Source: Candidatus Tectimicrobiota bacterium (lineage in GTDB: Bacteria; Tectomicrobia; Entotheonellia; Entotheonellales; Entotheonellaceae). Taken from it: DNA of 64,000 bases. The notes beneath the pieces were generated by a model. That model was given only the letters and a program-made list of their open reading frames with translations, had not been told where the DNA came from and searched no databases. Of this stretch, positions 11,273 to 18,945 are shown piece by piece (the stretch's first letter is position 1; each line of letters starts with the position of its first letter). Position numbers and translations under genes: made by a program. Where the stretch lies: assembly GCA_026005175.1 (NCBI GenBank), contig BPKO01000006.1, forward strand, positions 1-64,000. Reading direction: 5' to 3'.

Positions 11273-11914
11273 ATGACGCCAGCTTGTCCCGGGGCGGCAG
11301 ACCGCCTGTCCCAGCTGCTGGCCACTTTGCCCCGCTACTGCCCGGCGGAGCAGCGCTTCGCCTTGCAGCTCTACCGCCGGCTGGCCACCGGAGAGCCGGT
11401 GCCCCGCGCCGCCCTAGCAGCCGAAGAGGCCCTCTGGCAGCGCTTTGCCGGCCGCCTGCGCGATGACGCCGCGGGACGGGTGGTGGCCTTTGGCGGCCTG
11501 TCGCTGCTGCCCACGGCGCACCGCATGGAGGTCGCCGGCCGCCTGCTGTACGCCTGGTGCGCCTGGGATACCCTGTTCCTGCCGGCGCTGCTGCAGCAGC
11601 CGGCCCGGGTCACTTCGTCTTGCGCCGTGACCGCCACCCCCGTGTGCCTGGAAGTGACGCCGCAGCGCCTTGCCCGCTGCCAGCCCGCCAGCGCCGTGGT
11701 GTCGTTTGTGGTGCCTGCCGCCTGGGAGGGCGACGTGGTGGCCGCTTTTTGCTGCCACGTGCGCTTCTTCCGCGACCTGGCCACCGGCCGGCAGGGGCTG
11801 GCGTCACACCCTGAAGCCTGGCTGCTGCCGGTGGCCGAGGCCTTTGCCCTTGGCCAGCGCAAAGTCGCCTTGCAGTTTGACGCCGTGGCGCTTGGGCAAT
11901 GCGAGGCATGCTGA
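11273..11914 (+). CDS. merB: Alkylmercury (organomercurial) lyase
   Basis: MerB splits the carbon-mercury bond of organomercurials and hands Hg(II) to MerA or a thiol carrier. This 213-residue protein has the catalytic residues at classical positions: C96 and D99 in YAWCAWDT, structural C117 in TSSCAVT, and the second catalytic Cys within FCCH at residues 160-161. The start at ATG 11273 follows AGAGGAGCC; codons upstream are open but the length from this start matches the family. Its end overlaps merR by 7 nt. Broad-spectrum (organomercurial) resistance is implied. Confidence 0.95.
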   Translation: MTPACPGAADRLSQLLATLPRYCPAEQRFALQLYRRLATGEPVPRAALAAEEALWQRFAGRLRDDAAGRVVAFGGLSLLPTAHRMEVAGRLLYAWCAWDTLFLPALLQQPARVTSSCAVTATPVCLEVTPQRLARCQPASAVVSFVVPAAWEGDVVAAFCCHVRFFRDLATGRQGLASHPEAWLLPVAEAFALGQRKVALQFDAVALGQCEAC

Positions 11915-12315
11915 AAATCGGCCAGCTCGCCGCCCGCTCGGGGCTGAGCCGCGACGCCATTCGCTTTTACGAACGCGAGGGGCTGCTGCCCCGGGCGCCC
12001 CGCACCCCGAGCGGCTACCGCCTCTACGCCCCGGAAACCCTGACGCGCCTGCAGTTCATTAAGCGCGCCCAGGCCCTGGGCTTTTCGCTTGCCGAGATCC
12101 GGGAGCTGCTTGCCGGCTACCAGGACCCCGAGGAGTGCCGGCGCGTCAAGGCGCTGCTGGAGCAGAAAATCGCCGAGCTCGACCGCAAGCTGCACGACAT
12201 GCAAGCCCTGCGTGCCGTGCTCGCCCGCTACCACGAGGCCTGCTGCCAGGCCCTGGCCACCCCCCAGCCGCCCCAGCCCTGCCCAGTGCTGCAGCTCATC
12301 CACGATGCCCCTTGA
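11908..12315 (+). CDS. merR: Mercury-responsive MerR regulator
   Basis: 135 residues. The N-terminal winged helix (LKIGQLAARSGLSRDAIRFYERE) is followed by the long dimerisation helix. The three Hg-binding cysteines of MerR are in place: C in DPEECRRVK, the EACC pair and QPCPVLQ. It should repress the mer promoter without Hg(II) and untwist the 20 bp spacer when Hg(II) binds. The start is ATG 11908 inside the end of merB, so merB and merR are co-translated. Its TGA stop lies within the -35 box of the downstream promoter. Confidence 0.93.
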   Translation: MLKIGQLAARSGLSRDAIRFYEREGLLPRAPRTPSGYRLYAPETLTRLQFIKRAQALGFSLAEIRELLAGYQDPEECRRVKALLEQKIAELDRKLHDMQALRAVLARYHEACCQALATPQPPQPCPVLQLIHDAP

Positions 12316-12343
12316 CCCTAGAGTCGACTCCAGGGTGTAGCAT
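12312..12343 (+). promoter_or_regulatory. MerR-type mer promoter/operator with 20 bp spacer
   Basis: The -35 TTGACC (12312-12317) and -10 TAGCAT (12338-12343) are 20 bp apart, the over-long spacing typical of MerR-activated promoters. Between them lies the dyad ACCCTAGAGT / ACTCCAGGGT (12316-12336), nearly perfect. The merR stop codon (12313-12315) overlaps the -35, so merR reads straight into its own target promoter. Confidence 0.85.
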
Positions 12344-12376
12344 AAAAGCGAACCCTTACGACTTGGGAGGAAGCCC

Positions 12377-12709
12377 ATGGCACGACGGCACTGGTACGGC
12401 AAGGAGGGGCTGCTCGGCCTGGGGGCGGCGCTGGCCGCCTCCACGTGCTGCCTGCTGCCCCTGGCGGTGGTGTTCCTGGGGCTGGGCAGCGGCGCCTTCA
12501 TGATGACCACCATGCGCTGGCGCCCGGTACTCCTGCCCCTGGGGCTGTTGGGGCTGGCGGCGGCTTATTACCTGCACTTCCGCGAGCGGCGCCGCTGCCG
12601 CACCCAGGGCTGCGCCATGGCCGGCAAGACCTTCAACACGGTGATGCTGGCGCTGGCCACGCTGATCATGCTTGGCGTGATCTGGGCTGACTTTTTTGCC
12701 GCCCGCTAA
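12377..12709 (+). CDS. merT: Mercuric transport protein MerT
   Basis: 110 residues with three membrane spans. The first span carries the Hg-relay pair in AASTCCLLPLAV. The cytoplasmic loop has RRRCRTQGCAMAGKTF with the second cysteine pair, and the third span is MLALATLIMLGVIWADF. It takes Hg(II) from a periplasmic carrier and passes it inward toward MerA. GGGAGGAAG precedes the ATG and it is the first gene after the mer promoter. The frame is intact. Confidence 0.92.
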   Translation: MARRHWYGKEGLLGLGAALAASTCCLLPLAVVFLGLGSGAFMMTTMRWRPVLLPLGLLGLAAAYYLHFRERRRCRTQGCAMAGKTFNTVMLALATLIMLGVIWADFFAAR

Positions 12710-12720
12710 AGGAGAAGCGT

Positions 12721-12972
12721 ATGCACCCGGAAGTGGTGGTCTACACGGCAGCCTCGTGAGGGGCCTGCCAGCACGTGAAAGAGTTTCTTTCCGCACACGG
12801 TATTGCCTTTACCCCGCGCGACGTGACCCGGGATCCTGCCGCCCGGCAGGCGCTGCTGGCCCTCACCGGACAGTCGGCCACGCCGGTGGTGGTGGTGGGA
12901 AACGAAGTGGTGGTGGGCTTCGACCGCGGCCGGCTGCAGCGCCTGCTGCGCCTGCACCAGGAGGCTCGCTGA
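12721..12972 (+). CDS. Selenocysteine-containing glutaredoxin-like protein in the mer operon
   Basis: An 83-residue glutaredoxin/NrdH-like fold. The frame reads MHPEVVVYTAAS, TGA (12757-12759), GACQHVKEFLSAHGI, so the active site is U13-G-A-C16 where homologues have CxxC. The remainder is standard: FTPRDVTRDPAARQALLAL, then SATPVVVVGNEVVVGFD with the cis-Pro and the GFD end motif. GGAGAAG precedes the ATG 11 bp after merT, and its stop overlaps the next start (TGATG). A hairpin at 12777-12791 is a candidate SECIS. It probably reduces or carries mercury or mercury-modified thiols in the cytoplasm. Read without recoding it would be a 12-residue peptide, which is implausible in an intact operon. 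Confidence 0.85.
12777..12791 (+). promoter_or_regulatory. Candidate SECIS hairpin of the mer glutaredoxin
   Basis: GAAAGA (12777-12782), loop GTT, TCTTTC (12786-12791). The loop starts 24 nt after the TGA and begins with G, matching the position and loop rule at the other three genes. Confidence 0.55.
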
Positions 12973-13262
12973 TGCGGCTCCTTTGTCCCGGCTGCGGCCA
13001 GGCGCGCGAGCTTGGCCCCGAGGTGCGCCTCGGCGACGAGCTTACCTGCGAGGCCTGCGCCGGCGTGCTGCTGCAGGTAGTCGAAGAAAACGGCGTCTTG
13101 AGCCTGCGCGAGGTGCCGCAGGCTTCCTGCCCGCAGTGCGAAACGCGCCTGCGCCTGCCCGCGGGCGTGCAACCCGGCGACACCCTGGTGCACTGCGGCC
13201 GGCGCCTGGTGGTGACGTACGCCTTTGGCGCTTACGCCCTCGAGCCGCCAGGGCGCTTCTAA
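12972..13262 (+). CDS. Small zinc-ribbon protein of the mer operon
   Basis: 96 residues with three cysteine pairs: CPGCGQ at the N-terminus, TCEAC near residue 28 and SCPQCET near residue 56, plus a lone HCGRR near residue 76. The layout suggests two zinc-ribbon or rubredoxin-like knuckles. It is coupled to the Sec-glutaredoxin gene (start overlaps its stop). I do not recognise a named family. A role in metal (mercury or zinc) binding is inferred from cysteine content and context only. Confidence 0.75.
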   Translation: MRLLCPGCGQARELGPEVRLGDELTCEACAGVLLQVVEENGVLSLREVPQASCPQCETRLRLPAGVQPGDTLVHCGRRLVVTYAFGAYALEPPGRF

Positions 13263-13298
13263 AGGGGTCTAGCGCCCTCCTCGTCAAGGAGACACGCC

Positions 13299-13655
13299 AT
13301 GCAACGCCAAGCACGAATAGCCGCAGTCCTGCTCTTGCTGCTGGTGCTGCTGGCGGGCTGCGGCACCTCGGAGGCGCCGGGCAACGGCGCTTCGCCGTCG
13401 GCTGGAGCGGCCCCGACGTCCTCCCCCGCGTCCCTGCAGCGCCTCACCCTGCGCATTACCGGCATGTCGTGAGGCTCCTGAGCGCTCATCGTGCAACTGG
13501 CCTTGGCAAGGCTGGAAGGCGTTTACGAGGCAAAAGTGAGCTTTGGCGAGCAGCGCGCCTGGGTGCAGTACGACCCGCAGAAGGTAACGGCAGCGCAGAT
13601 GATAGAGGCGGTGCAGCGCGCTGGCTTTGGCGCCGAAGTCCTGGCAAGCGATTAG
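13299..13655 (+). CDS. MerP-like HMA lipoprotein with double selenocysteine (UxxU)
   Basis: 118 codons. A lipoprotein signal peptide (residues 1-20, lipobox LAG-C21) leads to a low-complexity linker and an HMA ferredoxin-like domain (residues 48-118). The metal motif reads GMS-TGA-GS-TGA-AL (TGA at 13470-13472 and 13479-13481) where MerP and CopZ-type domains have GMTCxxC. After both TGAs the domain continues perfectly: LALARLEGVYEAKVSFGE, VQYDPQKVTAAQMIEAVQRA, GFGAEVL. The start at ATG 13299 follows AAGGAGA. It should sit on the outer face of the inner membrane, or in the periplasm, as the Hg(II) collector feeding MerT, using two selenols. A hairpin follows at 13497-13515. No other MerP is present in the operon, which supports the role. 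Confidence 0.83.
13497..13515 (+). promoter_or_regulatory. Candidate SECIS hairpin of the HMA selenoprotein
   Basis: CTGGCCTT (13497-13504) pairs with AAGGCTGG (13508-13515) with two G-U pairs, loop GGC. The loop begins 24 nt after the second TGA and 33 nt after the first, so one hairpin could serve both codons. Confidence 0.6.
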
Positions 13656-13670
13656 CAGGGGAGAGCAGCC

Positions 13671-14282
13671 ATGGCCCCGCTCTGGCGGCGCCAGGCGGCA
13701 GCGCCGGCCGATGCCGCCCTCATGCAACGGGTGGTGGCCGGCGACGCCGAAGCCTTTGCGCAGCTGGTGCGCCGCTACGAGCATCCCCTTTACAACTACC
13801 TGCGGCGCATGGTCCAAGACGAGGCGCTGGCCGCCGACTTGCTGCAGGAGACCTGGCTGCGCCTTTTCCAGCACGCCCACCGCTACGATCCTGCCCGCCC
13901 GCTGAGCACCTGGCTGTTTGCCATTGCCTACCACAGCTGCCTCGACGCCCTGCGCCAGCGGCAGCGCCGCCAGGTCGTAACGTCCGCCGCTGCCGCCCCT
14001 GGCCCCGCCGATCCCCAGCGGGCGCTGCTCGCCCAGGAAGCGCAGGCGGCGGTGCGGGCCGCGGTGGCCAGCCTGCCGCCAGCGCAGCGGGCGGTGCTGC
14101 TCCTGCGCCACTACCACGGCCTGTCGTACCAGGAAATCGCTGCCGTGGTGCAGTGCCCGGTGGGCACGGTGAAGTCGCGCCTGCACCACGCCCTGCGCCA
14201 CTTGCAGCAGACGCTGGCGGCCTGGGGCGTGGTGGAAAACGCCGCCACCGACAGGCTCGTGGAGAAAACCCGCGGCGAGTGA
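13671..14282 (+). CDS. ECF-family RNA polymerase sigma factor
   Basis: 203 residues. Region 2 is at about residues 20-95 (ALMQRVVAGDAEAFAQLVRRY, LQETWLRLFQHAHRYDP, LSTWLFAIAYHSCLDALRQR). Region 4 is at about 125-180 (LPPAQRAVLLLRHYHGLSYQEIA, VGTVKSRLHHALRHL). The start is ATG 13671 after GGGGAGAGCAGCC. It lies inside the mercury operon, 16 bp after the Sec-HMA gene, and its likely anti-sigma partner is at 14959-15771. It probably directs a stress regulon linked to metal exposure; the target promoters were not identified. Confidence 0.88.
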   Translation: MAPLWRRQAAAPADAALMQRVVAGDAEAFAQLVRRYEHPLYNYLRRMVQDEALAADLLQETWLRLFQHAHRYDPARPLSTWLFAIAYHSCLDALRQRQRRQVVTSAAAAPGPADPQRALLAQEAQAAVRAAVASLPPAQRAVLLLRHYHGLSYQEIAAVVQCPVGTVKSRLHHALRHLQQTLAAWGVVENAATDRLVEKTRGE

Positions 14283-14339
14283 ACCTAACCGCCTCCGGCG
14301 GCGTATTACCCGTGTGAGAACTTAAGAAGGAGACCCCTG

Positions 14340-14642
14340 ATGGCCACCCCCCCGATAGCCCGACGGCGCTGGCGCGCCACTCTGAGCGTGGTCGTTGCTT
14401 TGCTGACTTGTCCCTGCCACTTGCCGCTGTGGCTCGCGCTCCTGGCGGGCACGGCGGCAGGCGGCTGGCTTAGCCACCACCTGTGGCTGGTGCTGCCGGC
14501 CATGGGAGGTCTTTTCGCGGGGGCGCTGTGGGTTGCCGCCCGTGCCCTGGCCGGCGGTGAGGCGGCGTGCTGTACGGCGGCGCCAGAGCAGGCGGAGAAA
14601 GGTGCGCCCTCCGCCGACGCCGTCGCGGAGAAGCGGCCATGA
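14340..14642 (+). CDS. merE: MerE-like mercury transporter
   Basis: 100 residues with the MerE hallmark TCPCHLPLWLALLAGTAAGG in the first span and a second span LWLVLPAMGGLFAGALWV. MerE carries inorganic and methylmercury across the inner membrane. The C-terminal tail adds CC near residue 77. AGAAGGAGA precedes the ATG. It overlaps the next gene by 4 nt (ATGA). Confidence 0.85.
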   Translation: MATPPIARRRWRATLSVVVALLTCPCHLPLWLALLAGTAAGGWLSHHLWLVLPAMGGLFAGALWVAARALAGGEAACCTAAPEQAEKGAPSADAVAEKRP

Positions 14643-14944
14643 GCGGGCGCTGGTGGAGCGCAGGGTCGGTGCTGGCAGCGCTGGGCGTGGCGGTGTGCTG
14701 CCTGGGGCCGCTGCTGTTTGCGGCGCTGGGGCTGAGCACGCTGACCAGCCTGTGGCTCCTGCGCCACCTGGTGCCGTACCGCAACGTCTTTCTGGCCCTC
14801 ACGTTTTTCTTCCTCGGCCTGGCGTTTTATGCCACTTACCGCCGTGGCCGGCGGGCCCGCTGGCCCGAACAGGCGGTGCTGTGGGGGGCGACGGCCTTGG
14901 CCTTGGGGCTGGTGGGCTACAGCCTGGCCGTGGAAGGGTTTTGA
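14639..14944 (+). CDS. MerT/MerC-like membrane protein
   Basis: 101 residues with three predicted spans. The first holds a vicinal pair (LGVAVCCLGPLLFAALG) like MerT, followed by FLALTFFFLGLAFYATYRR. Unlike MerT it lacks the cytoplasmic cysteine pair. It is the second MerT-like protein in the operon and is translationally coupled to merE. An Hg(II) import role is inferred. Confidence 0.75.
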   Translation: MSGRWWSAGSVLAALGVAVCCLGPLLFAALGLSTLTSLWLLRHLVPYRNVFLALTFFFLGLAFYATYRRGRRARWPEQAVLWGATALALGLVGYSLAVEGF

Positions 14945-14958
14945 GAAGGAGAGGGGCG

Positions 14959-15771
14959 GTGGACTGCCGGGCCGTCCAGGACGCACTGGTGGAAGCGCTT
15001 TACGGAGCGCTGCCGGCGGCACGCCAGGTGGCGGCGCACTGCCAGGCCTGCCCGTCTTGCGCCGCGGCCTGGGAGGCGCTGCAGCGCACCGCGGCCCTGC
15101 TCGCGCAGTGGCCAGACGAGCCACCGCCGGCTGCGGTGCGGCAGCGGGTTCTGGCGCAGGTGAGGGCCCTGGCGGCGGCGGGGCGCCGGCCCTGGTGGCA
15201 GGGCGGACTGGCGCGCACGGCGCTGGCCGTGGGTGCTGGACTGGCGCTGCTGGTGCTCACCGTGCTCGTGCTGGCGCCCTGGCTTCCCCTTGACGCCGTA
15301 ACCCCTCGTCTTTTGCTCCTCTGCGGCGCCCTGTGGGGCGGGGCGTACATCGGCCTCTGCCGCCTCGCCTTTGCCGGCCAGGAAGAAGGCCTTGCCGTGG
15401 CGGCCGCGCAGCTGGCCCTGCTGGCGCTGGCGGTGGCGACCTTGCTGCTTGCTGCGGCGCGGGCGCTCGGGCTGGCGGCCTGGCTTCCGGCGGCCGGGCC
15501 TGCGCTTTTTGGCGGCGGCCTGGCCCTGGTGGCCTTGGGGGTAAGCAGCGGGTGCAGTGGCCGCTGGCTGGCGGTGCGCTCCGCCGTGCAGGCGCTGCTG
15601 GCGGCGTGCTTCTTCTTGCTGGCCGTCGCCCCGGGATTGCTTATGTTCTGCGTTCCCTTCACCCTGGGGGCCTACGCCGGGCTGCTGCTGGCCGTGGGGT
15701 GTGGCGCCGGGGCAGGGGTGCTGGGCGGCGCGCTGGCGCAGGGAGGAATCTGGCGCCATGGGCGGGAATGA
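14959..15771 (+). CDS. Membrane anti-sigma factor with zinc-finger N-terminus
   Basis: 270 residues from GTG 14959 (GGAGAGGGGC upstream). The N-terminal 45 residues hold the anti-sigma H-x3-C-x2-C signature (AHCQACPSCAAAW). A first span follows at about residues 85-105 and then a polytopic C-terminal half (about six spans) with GVSSGCSGRWLAVRSAVQ. It probably sequesters the ECF sigma encoded three genes upstream and senses a membrane or metal signal. A multi-span sensor domain is unusual. The 3' end overlaps the IS5 remnant by 14 nt. Confidence 0.7.
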   Translation: MDCRAVQDALVEALYGALPAARQVAAHCQACPSCAAAWEALQRTAALLAQWPDEPPPAAVRQRVLAQVRALAAAGRRPWWQGGLARTALAVGAGLALLVLTVLVLAPWLPLDAVTPRLLLLCGALWGGAYIGLCRLAFAGQEEGLAVAAAQLALLALAVATLLLAAARALGLAAWLPAAGPALFGGGLALVALGVSSGCSGRWLAVRSAVQALLAACFFLLAVAPGLLMFCVPFTLGAYAGLLLAVGCGAGAGVLGGALAQGGIWRHGRE

Positions 15772-16177
15772 AGCGAGGGCAAGAACGCGAGCCCCCTATC
15801 CCAGCGACTTAAGCGAGCGGCAGTGGCGGCGCATTGCCCCGCTGCTGCCGCCGGCGCGGCCCGGAGGGCGGCCTGCGGAAGTGGACCGCCGGGAAATCGT
15901 TAACGCCATCCTCTACCGGCTGCGCAGCGGCTGCTCCTGGCGCATGCTGCCGCACGACTTGCCGCCCTGGGGCACGGTGCACTTTTACTTTCGCCAGTGG
16001 CGGCGCGACGGCACCTGGGAGCGCGTCTGCCGCGCGCTGCGGCTGCGGGAGGACTCCCAGGCGGAGGGAGACAGGCGGGAACAGGTCTTTACAATGCAAC
16101 AACAGAGAAACAACGGAGAACGGAATGATGATCTGTTTTGTTCGAAATCGACTCGCAATTTTGACACTTGTGATTAG
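15758..16177 (+). pseudogene. Truncated IS5-family transposase (N-terminal domain only)
   Basis: The protein from ATG 15758 contains the IS5/DUF4096 N-terminal domain: YPSDLSERQWRRIAPLLPPAR, GGRPAEVDRREIVNAILYRLRSG, WRMLPHDLPPWGTVHFYFRQW, DGTWERV. Similarity stops near 16070; the remainder to the stop at 16177 is unrelated and the DDE catalytic domain is absent. I see no terminal inverted repeats. It marks the left edge of a lower-GC stretch that carries the DUF302 gene. Confidence 0.8.
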
Positions 16178-16610
16178 CAGTTTGAGCGCCATCCCCCTGG
16201 GGGCAACGGCCCAGCAAGGGAGCCCACCGCCATTTCAAATGGTAGTTCTATCCAAATATGACTTTTCAGACACACTGGCTTTGCTGAAGGCGGCTATCGA
16301 AAGCGAGAATTTAATGCTCATCAAAGAGATTGACCCGCAGCAGATGCTTCGTTTGGTCGGTGTGAACCCCAATGGCATGCGCCAGCTTCTCTTCTTTCAT
16401 CCGCGTTTTATGAAGCGCATCATGGAGGCCAATCCGCACGCTACCCTTGAGCCGCCGCTGAAAGTTGTCGTTATGGAGGCCCCTCAGGGAAAGGCAATAG
16501 TTAAGTACGTAAAGCCGTCGGCGATTTTTAGTCGCTACGAGGGTCTTGCGGCCCTTGCGCAAGAGCTGGACACCTTACTGGCCAGAATCGTAGCCAATGT
16601 GCAGCAATAG
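16125..16610 (+). CDS. Secreted DUF302-domain protein
   Basis: 161 residues. Signal peptide about 1-30 (ending ATAQQ), then the DUF302 fold: ALLKAAIESENLMLIKEIDP, VNPNGMRQLLFFHPRFMKRIM, PLKVVVMEAPQGKAIVKYVKPS. DUF302 proteins occur near copper, thiol and redox genes and their function is not established. Base composition is visibly less GC-rich than the neighbours, and the gene directly follows a transposase remnant, so it was probably acquired separately. The start is ATG 16125 after GGAGAA (ATG 16128 also possible). Confidence 0.85.
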   Translation: MMICFVRNRLAILTLVISSLSAIPLGATAQQGSPPPFQMVVLSKYDFSDTLALLKAAIESENLMLIKEIDPQQMLRLVGVNPNGMRQLLFFHPRFMKRIMEANPHATLEPPLKVVVMEAPQGKAIVKYVKPSAIFSRYEGLAALAQELDTLLARIVANVQQ

Positions 16611-16625
16611 CGTCGGAGAAAGCCT

Positions 16626-17406
16626 ATGCCTTCCGTGGGAGCCCGCGTGCAGCGTGCCGTCCTCGTTCTGCTGGCCCTGCTTGCCGGTGGCGCGATCCCC
16701 ATTCAGCTGGTCACCCTGTCGTTTGGCTATGCCCAGTACATAAAGAAAGTAATGCTTGGCCCTAAGGTGATCATGACCGCCCACCAGTTTGCCAGCTGGT
16801 ACCTTCCCTGGGTCTATCTGCCTGCCATGGGAGTGCTTGCGGCCATTGTCTTATACGCACGCCGGCGTCATCCGGACCTCTGCCGTCGTATCCTCGTTGG
16901 CTTTGGCATGGGCGCGGTGGCCACCGTAGCACTCGATGCGGCCAGAGAAGCCGGGGTGATTCACGGCTGGCTGCCTGGTGACACGCCTGTGATGTTTGGC
17001 AAAATGGCAACCGGAAGCCAGCATTTTGCCGTTGTTTACGCCACTGGCTTGCTGATTCACTACCTGAACGGCGCTGACTTTGGCTTGGTGTATGCCTTTG
17101 TTTGGGGCAAGAGAAGGAGCTATCGAGAAGCGGTACTCTGGGCGACAGGATGGGCGTTGCTCGTCGAGTTGGGGATGATGCTGGGGCCTCCGATGGGGCC
17201 CATGGTAGGCCCCCTTTGGGGTCCGTTATGCCTGGCCCCAGCTATTCCTGCTTACCCTGGTGGCGCACGTGGCCTTCGGGGTTGCCCTGGGGCTCTTGGT
17301 GCAGACGTTTTTACAGGATGCAGATCGCGGGTGGTTCTGGCACTTCCTCAGGGGGCCCACCCCGCTCCACAGCAGGGCAGTGTCTTCACACCAAGCGCCG
17401 GTGTAA
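16626..17406 (+). CDS. Membrane protein of the mercury locus (one frameshift)
   Basis: About 260 codons. Several membrane spans: VLVLLALLAGGAIPIQLVTL, WVYLPAMGVLAAIVLYARR, RILVGFGMGAVATVALDAAREAG, AVVYATGLLIHYLNGADFGL, AVLWATGWALLVELGMMLGPPMG. Near 17215 (a G/C-rich run) the frame changes; the tail in the new frame (QLFLLTLVAHVAFGVALGLLVQ and onward) ends at 17406. I do not recognise the family. It follows the DUF302 gene by 15 bp. A transport role is possible but not shown. Confidence 0.65.
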
Positions 17407-17445
17407 TTTGTCCGCTGAGGACTCGATCGCTTTACGAGGCAGCGT

Positions 17446-17520
17446 ATGTCCACTCCGCTTGAGTTGGCTCTCTGCTGCGGCGTGTTCCTGGCTCTTATGC
17501 TTGCATTCTTCAAGACATGA
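17446..17520 (+). CDS. Predicted 24-residue membrane peptide
   Basis: The frame MSTPLELALCCGVFLALMLAFF-KT encodes a single hydrophobic span containing a vicinal CC pair. A weak GAGG site lies upstream and merA begins 11 bp after the stop with its own GAGGAG. Position and the CC pair in a membrane helix recall the MerT relay. It may equally be chance; only conservation would decide. Confidence 0.35.
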   Translation: MSTPLELALCCGVFLALMLAFFKT

Positions 17521-17531
17521 GGAGATAGCCA

Positions 17532-18945
17532 ATGTACGACTACGACCTGCTGGTCATTGGCACCGGCGGTGGGGGAATGGCGGCCGCCATCCGCGGCGCC
17601 GAGCTGGGAGCGCGGGTGGCCATTGTCGAAGCCGGCACCATCGGCGGCACCTGCGTCAACCGCGGCTGCGTGCCCTCCAAGACTCTCATGCGCGCCGCCT
17701 TGGTCTACCACCAGGCCGGCCACCACGGCTTTGCCGGCGTGCACACGCGCCAGGAAGGCGTCGACTGGCCCAAGCTCATCGCCCAGAAGGAGGCCCTCAT
17801 CGAGGGCCTGCGCCAGGAGAAGTACCTCGACGTGCTGGCCGCTTACGACCGCATTACTTTGCTGCGCGGCTGGGCACGGCTGCAAGGAGAAGGCCGCGTC
17901 GCCGTAAGCGAGCGCCTCTACCGCGCCCAATACGTCGTGCTGGCCACCGGAGCGCGCCCGCACATCCTGCCTCTGGAAGGCATCGAGACGGTGGAAGTGC
18001 TCACCAGCACCACCGCCATGACCCTGCCGCAGCAGCCGCGCTCCTTGCTGGTCATCGGCGGCCGTGCCGTGGCGCTGGAGCTGGGACAGATCTTTGCCCG
18101 CCTGGGCACGCGCGTCACCCTCTTGCAGCGCAGCCCCCGCCTTTTGCCCGAGCACGAGCCGGTGATTGCCGAGGCCCCTGGCCGACTACCTGCGGCAAGA
18201 AGGACTGGAGGTGCTCACCGGGGTGCGCCCCCTGGCCATTCGCCAGGAAGGCAGCGAAAAAGTGGTGCTGGCCGACGTCAACGGCCAACCGCGGCCTTTT
18301 CGTGCCGAGCAGGTGCTCATGGCCACCGGGCGGGTGCCCAACACCCAGGACCTGGGGCTGGAGACGCTGGGCATTGCCAGGCGTGAGGGCGGCGCCATCG
18401 AAGTGGACGCCACCCTGCGCACCAGCCACCCCCGCGTCTACGCCGTGGGCGACTGCACCACCTTGCCGCAGCTCGTCTACGTGGCGGCAGCGGCCGGCAG
18501 CATGGCAGCAGAAAACGCCCTCACCGGCGCCGGCAAGCCGCTCGACCTCACCGTGCTGCCCGACGTGATCTTCACCGATCCCCAGGTGGCCACTGTGGGC
18601 CTCACCGAGGCGCAGGCGCAAGCAGCCGGCTATGTGGTGCAGACGGCGGTGCTGCCTTTGGCTTACGTGCCGCGGGCCATTGCGGCGCGCGACACGCGCG
18701 GGCTCATCAAGCTGGTGGTCGACGCCGCCAGCGGTCGCTTGCTGGGGGCGCACGTGCTGGCCGCCGAAGGCGGGGAGGTGATCCAGACGGCGGCGCTGGC
18801 CATCGAGTGCGGGCGGCGCTACGGCTTTCGCGTCGAGGACCTGCGCCAGCTGCTCTTCCCTTACCTGGTGCAAGTCGAAGGGCTGAAGCTGGCGGCGCAG
18901 ACCTTGGCCAAAGACGTCACCAAGCTCTCCTGCTGCGCCGGCTAA
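17532..18945 (+). CDS. merA: Mercuric reductase (one frameshift)
   Basis: MerA reduces Hg(II) to volatile Hg(0) with NADPH and FAD in the cytoplasm. The N-terminal FAD motif is VIGTGGGGMAAAIRGAELG, the redox pair C41/C46 is in GGTCVNRGCVPSK, the NADPH domain starts SLLVIGGRAVALELGQ, and the C-terminus ends KLSCCAG, the Cys pair that delivers Hg(II). There is no N-terminal HMA domain. Near 18170-18180 the frame changes (family sequence resumes LADYLRQEGLEVLTGV), a single-base indel. The stop TAA (18943-18945) runs into a GGGACAGG repeat, which probably terminates the mer transcript. Confidence 0.93.

Follow-up and report, generated by a model that had tools for sequence, protein, structure and literature searches.

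Can a mercury-resistance locus handle its metal with selenocysteine (Sec, U) in place of cysteine? This question is raised by positions 11273 to 18945 of the window, the 64,000-nucleotide stretch of DNA from Candidatus Tectimicrobiota bacterium that was analyzed here. Herein, mer-type genes surround two forward-strand genes with in-frame UGA codons. The first encodes a glutaredoxin of 83 residues with a UxxC motif (12721..12972), and the second a MerP-like lipoprotein that has an HMA domain with a UxxU motif (13299..13655). By sequence criteria, it is close to certain that both are selenoprotein genes, and the locus is probably a mercury (soft-metal) detoxification operon whose two carriers have Sec instead of Cys in their metal-binding sites.

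Reading of UGA in the glutaredoxin and MerP-like genes

Frames and translations confirm that both genes are in frame and lie where the initial annotation had placed them. The glutaredoxin (PF00462, 61.5 bits) shows the active-site motif TAASUGACQ, where U corresponds to the UGA at 12757-12759 and falls on a CxxC position. Its frame ends with a genuine TGA stop that overlaps the ATG of the following zinc-ribbon gene. The MerP-like protein (PF00403, 47.4 bits) contains the lipobox LLAGC and the motif GMSUGSU, and its UGAs lie at 13470-13472 and 13479-13481. Tectomicrobia and other phyla harbor homologues in which UGA occupies the corresponding codons; these are found in Tectomicrobia, Nitrospinae, Rokubacteria, and other metagenome-assembled genomes (MAGs); identity to the UGA homologues of the Tectomicrobia MAG G052 amounts to 53% for the glutaredoxin and 48% for the UxxU protein. 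Between close relatives, substitutions 3′ of the glutaredoxin UGA lie mostly in third codon positions (in one example 4, 4, and 25 by codon position), as is expected of a translated reading frame, and the counts for a close MerP pair (2, 6, and 10) are less clear.

Each UGA context is followed by a hairpin resembling a SECIS, the element expected for Sec insertion. For the glutaredoxin, it spans 12775..12793 (+), about 16-36 nt after the UGA; counted from the UGA, the stem joins bases 18-24 to bases 30-36, and its loop contains GUU. All five pairs of the core form in 37 of 38 UGA-type homologues vs none of 17 Cys-type homologues (Fisher p 2.6e-13, a value that, like the one for MerP below, overstates certainty since related sequences are not independent events). 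Among 30 distinct sequences, 95% of the stem cells pair, and covariation reaches 0.286 vs 0.140 after shuffling, with none of 500 shuffles as high; sliding the partner strand by one column lowers pairing to 60% or less. A second UGA glutaredoxin lies elsewhere in the window, on the reverse strand at 555-1289. It has a UxxC motif (PGUSSC), the same downstream hairpin, and a fused C-terminal part with no Pfam match. The standard open reading frame (ORF) call of this gene begins after the UGA, and the active site is thereby lost.

The hairpin of the MerP-like gene (13499..13513, +) has a GGC loop at a distance of 26 nt, measured from the first base of the second UGA, and among homologues a GGA, GGC, or GUC loop lies at 26-28 from the last UGA. 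A full stem of five out of five pairs occurs in 12 of 16 UGA forms and in none of the 15 Cys forms (p 1.6e-5). Covariation in the 12 stem-bearing UGA forms is 0.722 vs 0.301 shuffled; these sequences were picked for having the stem, so their pairing percentage is not independent, and what counts as evidence is covariation compared with shuffles, along with the contrast of UGA and Cys forms. The offset from the last UGA is constant in UxxU, UxxC, and CxxU forms, which suggests that one hairpin may serve both UGAs in the UxxU forms. The exception is a UxxC form of an Acidobacteria MAG (L129), where the hairpin stays at the UxxU position.

Several other HMA-type proteins with UGA codons were observed. 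A second UxxU type (GMIUPVU/GMVUPVU), without the fixed hairpin of the MerP-like gene, occurs on contig 13 of the same genome (L048:7367-7816) and in a Nitrospinae genome (L079:6249-6400). Two adjacent HMA-like lipoproteins of a different lineage (G043, L051:6651-7443) have the UxxC motifs GMTUASC and GMTUSDC with the MerP-type hairpin in each, and two MerP-like copies at L081:5990-6812, which flank a merE-like gene, show UxxxU spacing (UPFTU) instead of UxxU.

Taken singly, neither hairpin of the window stands out: folds compared with shuffles give z -0.83 for the glutaredoxin and z -0.37 for MerP, neither of which is significant alone, and a free hairpin search is noisy. Single-sequence folds are indistinct from shuffles in such GC-rich DNA, so the argument rests on position, the UGA/Cys contrast, and covariation. 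With compensatory changes in both hairpins, Sec decoding is, by sequence criteria, close to certain.

The machinery for Sec insertion is encoded in the source genome, a MAG of 3.99 Mb with 77% completeness and 3.6% contamination. All four genes were found, namely selA (637.8 bits), selB (391.5 bits), selC (76.5 bits, anticodon UCA), and selD (378.9 bits), the last of which itself carries one in-frame TGA. Because searches for selB and selD give weak matches in most genomes, only matches over the cut-off were counted; on this basis, of the 21 checked genomes that have the cassette or are related, 19 contain SelB, the two without it being G077 and G390. The proposal of the initial annotation that both genes read UGA as Sec is thus borne out by UGAs on CxxC positions, homologues whose UGAs fall on the same codons, covarying hairpins, and a complete set of selA, selB, selC, and selD; the homologues and the sel genes are checks that it had itself proposed.

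Two other readings of the UGA codons were weighed. That the TGAs stand for TGC/TGT codons, altered by mutation in pseudogenes or by sequencing errors, is very improbable: a frameshift in merA shows that the locus is not error-free, but the same UGA codons recur in independent MAGs of other phyla, the hairpins are specific to UGA forms, and purifying selection is seen downstream of the UGA. This reading was rejected on the cross-phylum conservation of UGA and the UGA-only hairpins. Decoding of UGA as another residue, by a changed code or general readthrough, is hardly conceivable and was rejected as well, since nothing beyond the open frames speaks for it, the genome has a complete Sec system, and TGA is the ordinary stop of eight genes of the same locus, including merB, merR, glutaredoxin, ECF, and merE, meaning that the code is not altered as a whole.

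A recurrent cassette in several phyla

The recurrent cassette has four members: MerT, the Sec-glutaredoxin, a tandem zinc-ribbon protein, and Sec-MerP. In the window, the first merT-like gene, encoding an inner-membrane transporter, lies at 12377..12709 (+) and the zinc-ribbon gene at 12972..13262 (+). The initial annotation overlooked the latter gene, the third cassette member, which encodes a selenoprotein in some relatives, so the unit is broader than described there. The closest relative of the cassette is that of the Tectomicrobia MAG G052, with MerT, UxxC glutaredoxin, a two-UGA zinc ribbon, and UxxU MerP in the same order. The Nitrospinae-type genome G347 and its genus-mate G077 contain the zinc ribbon, Sec-glutaredoxin, MerT, and UxxU MerP, and a Sec-glutaredoxin adjoining the zinc ribbon is found in MAGs of Rokubacteria, Elusimicrobia, Deltaproteobacteria, and Acidobacteria. 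Clear homologues of the first MerT adjoin the cassette in G052, G347, G077, and Rokubacteria. When 386 diverse genomes were searched, two-UGA matches to the family NF041115 with an E value of 1e-15 or better numbered five (G000, G052, G347, G077, and G141), all of them in cassette loci.

The zinc ribbon was found in 8 of the 386 genomes, and a plasmid search gave no match to it. In the window, all of its metal-binding positions are Cys. It is predicted to fold as a tandem ribbon (AlphaFold2 mean pLDDT 91) with LysW-like halves; the C-terminal half resembles LysW with a Foldseek probability of 1.00 but an E value of 0.024, and with E 6e-5 in a profile search. In several relatives (G052, G035 with two copies, G278, L092, L096, and L103), UGA replaces the second Cys in one or both of the N-terminal CxxC knuckles, giving CxxU. 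One of these loci, from a deltaproteobacterial MAG (L103:52-2278), contains the pair of Sec-glutaredoxin and Sec zinc ribbon as a tandem duplication.

In three related loci, two from Rokubacteria (L094, L098) and one from the Acidobacteria MAG (L129), the cassette includes a MerB homologue with a UGA of its own. In the alignment, this UGA takes the place of MerB's catalytic Cys159, the positions of Cys96 and Asp99 are retained, and a hairpin of the form UCUUCC-GGUC-GGAAGA follows the UGA in all three. The homologue scores under the NCBIfam cut-offs of both MerB and SaoL. Beside a Nitrospinae cassette, an ORF with the UxxC motif SPTUGVC and no Pfam match (L079:9052-9780) may encode one more selenoprotein belonging to the unit. 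The cassette hence adds two candidate selenoprotein families, the CxxU tandem zinc ribbon and a MerB with Sec at the catalytic position, both of which gene callers will truncate or miss.

Architecture of the locus and its link to mercury

The mer, regulator, and sigma/anti-sigma genes described here lie on the forward strand. The locus starts with merB (11273..11914), encoding an alkylmercury lyase (PF03243, 110 bits, E 9.5e-32; NF009710, 166.8 bits, cut-off of 193 not reached). Equivalents of Cys96, Asp99, and Cys159 (MerB numbering) are present in the alignment as AWCAWD and FCCHVRFF, all as Cys where Cys is expected. A ZntR/MerR-like metal regulator of the MerR family follows at 11899..12315 (PF09278, PF13411). 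Between the regulator gene and merT, a pattern and dyad scan located a promoter/operator of the MerR-family type at 12312..12343, in which 20 bp separate TTGACC from TAGCAT and 22 bp form a near-palindrome (20 of 22 positions). A spacer of 20 bp is typical of MerR-family promoters. The same layout was found at L081, L083, L107, and L079/L112; in G141 and G035 it precedes the cassette, whereas in L107 and G347 it occurs nearby.

Downstream of the cassette are an ECF sigma factor (13671..14282; PF04542, PF08281), a merE-like transporter (14340..14642; PF05052, 36.8 bits vs a cut-off of 22.8), a second merT-like transporter (14639..14944; PF02411, 33.8 vs 32.9; NF033560, E 3.2e-15, below cut-off), and a probable anti-sigma factor with an HCxxC-type zinc motif (14959..15771; NF052375, E 7.6e-9, below cut-off). 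By their Pfam scores, MerB, MerE, and the second MerT are above cut-off. The sigma/anti-sigma pair (13671-15771) flanks merE and the second merT inside the mer locus and is possibly a second metal or redox regulator. An insertion-sequence fragment (the N terminus of a transposase), a DUF302 gene, and a membrane-protein gene occupy about 15772-17462. The last two (16128-17462) have a GC content at third codon positions (GC3) of 0.59-0.62 vs 0.77-0.92 around them, which suggests that DNA was inserted at a later time to separate the Sec cassette from merA. The mercuric reductase gene merA (17532..18945) matches TIGR02053 in two pieces, 17541-18173 (227.9 bits) and 18154-18942 (281.8 bits). Its translations show the active site GTCVNRGC and the C-terminal CC pair and are without the N-terminal HMA domain.

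The initial annotation had described a full set of merB, merR, merT, merE, and merA. All of these families occur in the locus, but merA has a frameshift, which went unreported there, and the regulator can be assigned only to the MerR family; the sigma/anti-sigma pair, the second MerT, the insertion-sequence fragment, and the lower-GC stretch are present in addition. A link between the cassette and mercury genes is supported, at the level of gene content, by merB, merT, merE, and merA in the window and by MerT, MerR-family regulators, and (Sec-)MerB in related loci.

A number of observations weigh against the reading as a mercury operon. The regulator scores higher as ZntR (117.4 bits) than as MerR (108.7 bits), both below cut-off, and is as ZntR/PbrR-like as it is MerR-like; the operator, which presumably resembles those of zntA and pbrA, can be judged likewise. 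The first MerT is weak by Pfam (PF02411, E 2e-5, 25.0 bits vs 32.9). In the assembly, merA contains a one-base frameshift near 18172, either a fault of the assembly or a genuine lesion; each half matches MerA. Finally, MerA-grade matches occur only in the window, in two pieces, and in G154, all other cassette genomes remaining below cut-off.

A possible selenol pathway and its alternatives

The proposed mechanism is a selenol-to-selenol metal relay. The lipid-anchored UxxU MerP would bind Hg(II) outside the inner membrane and pass it to MerT/MerE, which would bring it into the cell. In the cytoplasm, the UxxC glutaredoxin, together with the zinc ribbon, would receive Hg(II) from MerT or from MerB, the latter supplying it out of organomercurials, and would hand it to MerA for reduction or else restore the carriers. 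The N-terminal HMA domain of MerA normally delivers Hg(II) to the core of the enzyme; its absence from the MerA of the window leaves a gap that the glutaredoxin could fill. Relatives that lack merA would use the cassette to bind or move the metal, with no reduction step. Extended to several phyla, this amounts to a selenium-based mercury pathway with Sec in the UxxU carrier, the UxxC glutaredoxin, some zinc ribbons (CxxU/CxxU), and MerB, where Hg is passed or cleaved by selenols; such a pathway is put forward tentatively, as an idea somewhat more apt to fail than to hold.

The alternative that survives best assigns Sec to redox repair or to a sacrificial mercury sink (HgSe) with no relay. In this view, MerP is a scavenger, and the glutaredoxin acts on damaged thiol proteins by reducing or demetallating them. 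The UxxC glutaredoxin family is classically redox-active, and YruB-like glutaredoxins of the UGA type are found without any mer gene. However, the UxxU protein has no redoxin fold and both of its metal-binding Cys are replaced, and the presence of MerT in the cassette is consistent with transport. This alternative is a real possibility, if a rather doubtful one. Less plausible, and judged unlikely, is that the selenoproteins are real and serve mainly another metal (Zn, Cd, Pb, Cu, or another soft element), their place beside mer genes being a local acquisition. Besides the regulator nearest to ZntR and the lack of a MerA-grade gene in most cassette genomes, it draws on the fact that HMA proteins carry Cu too and on the patchwork nature of the locus, with its insertion-sequence fragment and lower-GC stretch. 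Against it, MerT, MerE, or MerB recur with the cassette, Sec occupies the catalytic position of MerB in three of the loci, and the MerB of the window keeps all catalytic residues.

Mercury detoxification by Sec-containing carriers, the reading preferred here, touches on several known systems. Compared with the classical mer operon (merR, merT, merP, merA, merB, and merE), the protein roles and the MerR-type promoter are the same, but MerP uses UxxU, and the Sec-glutaredoxin and the zinc ribbon are inserted. The MerP of the window does not reach the cut-off of TIGR02052 (MerP; 52.9 vs 92.55 bits) and is borderline for NF041115, with 95.2 bits for the full protein at a cut-off of 95 and 81.9 bits for the segment matched in the genome search; the homologue of G052 scores 108.5. 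A 2026 review lists NF041115 (UxxU_metal_bind) as a "metal-binding protein (putative mercuric reductase)" with a UxxU motif, from work on Olavius algarvensis (PMC13188914). Both Sec residues at CxxC positions are thus shared with this family, whose description, as far as found, includes no operon, glutaredoxin, or zinc-ribbon partners. Selenoproteins named "Mercuric transport protein MerP" and "Putative mercuric transport protein" appear in Table 2 of the GOS survey of 2008 (PMC2398784), and a Sec MerT with C/SxxU has been described (PMC13188914). Sec in Mer transport proteins had hence already been predicted from metagenomes; those entries are single families with very few sequences, whereas the window holds a conserved multigene unit with a Cys-only MerT. 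For the glutaredoxin, the nearest named families are the selenoproteins of the UXX-star (NF041212) and YruB (TIGR02196) types; it has UxxC and belongs to neither by cut-off (60.2 vs 66 and 78.2 vs 88.55 bits).

The SAO (Sec-assisted organometallic) operon of Haft and Gwadz (2023) contains, in the account given by the review, several selenoproteins thought to handle organometals, among them the MerB-like SaoL (PMC13188914). Its gene set as given there (SaoB, C, P, T, X, and L) is unlike that of the window. The MerB of the window reaches 31.4 bits against SaoL, below the cut-off of 140, and SaoB, SaoC, SaoP, SaoT, and SaoX have no NCBIfam match among the locus proteins scanned, the rest of the genome not having been searched for them. 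The operon section of the same review names grd, prd, frh/hdr, SAO, and Tso and no mer-type operon (PMC13188914). The initial annotation knew of no described operon of this form. For the operon this stands as far as the searched literature goes, namely the 2026 review and literature searches that gave no match; it does not extend to Sec-MerP-like proteins as such, which are already cataloged (NF041115; PMC2398784).

If the proposed function is true, the cassette would be a directly testable system in which Sec is retained for metal binding rather than for redox catalysis. The toxicity of mercury is largely due to its binding of selenols. An operon in which selenols are put to deliberate use in handling mercury would, if true, reverse this usual picture.

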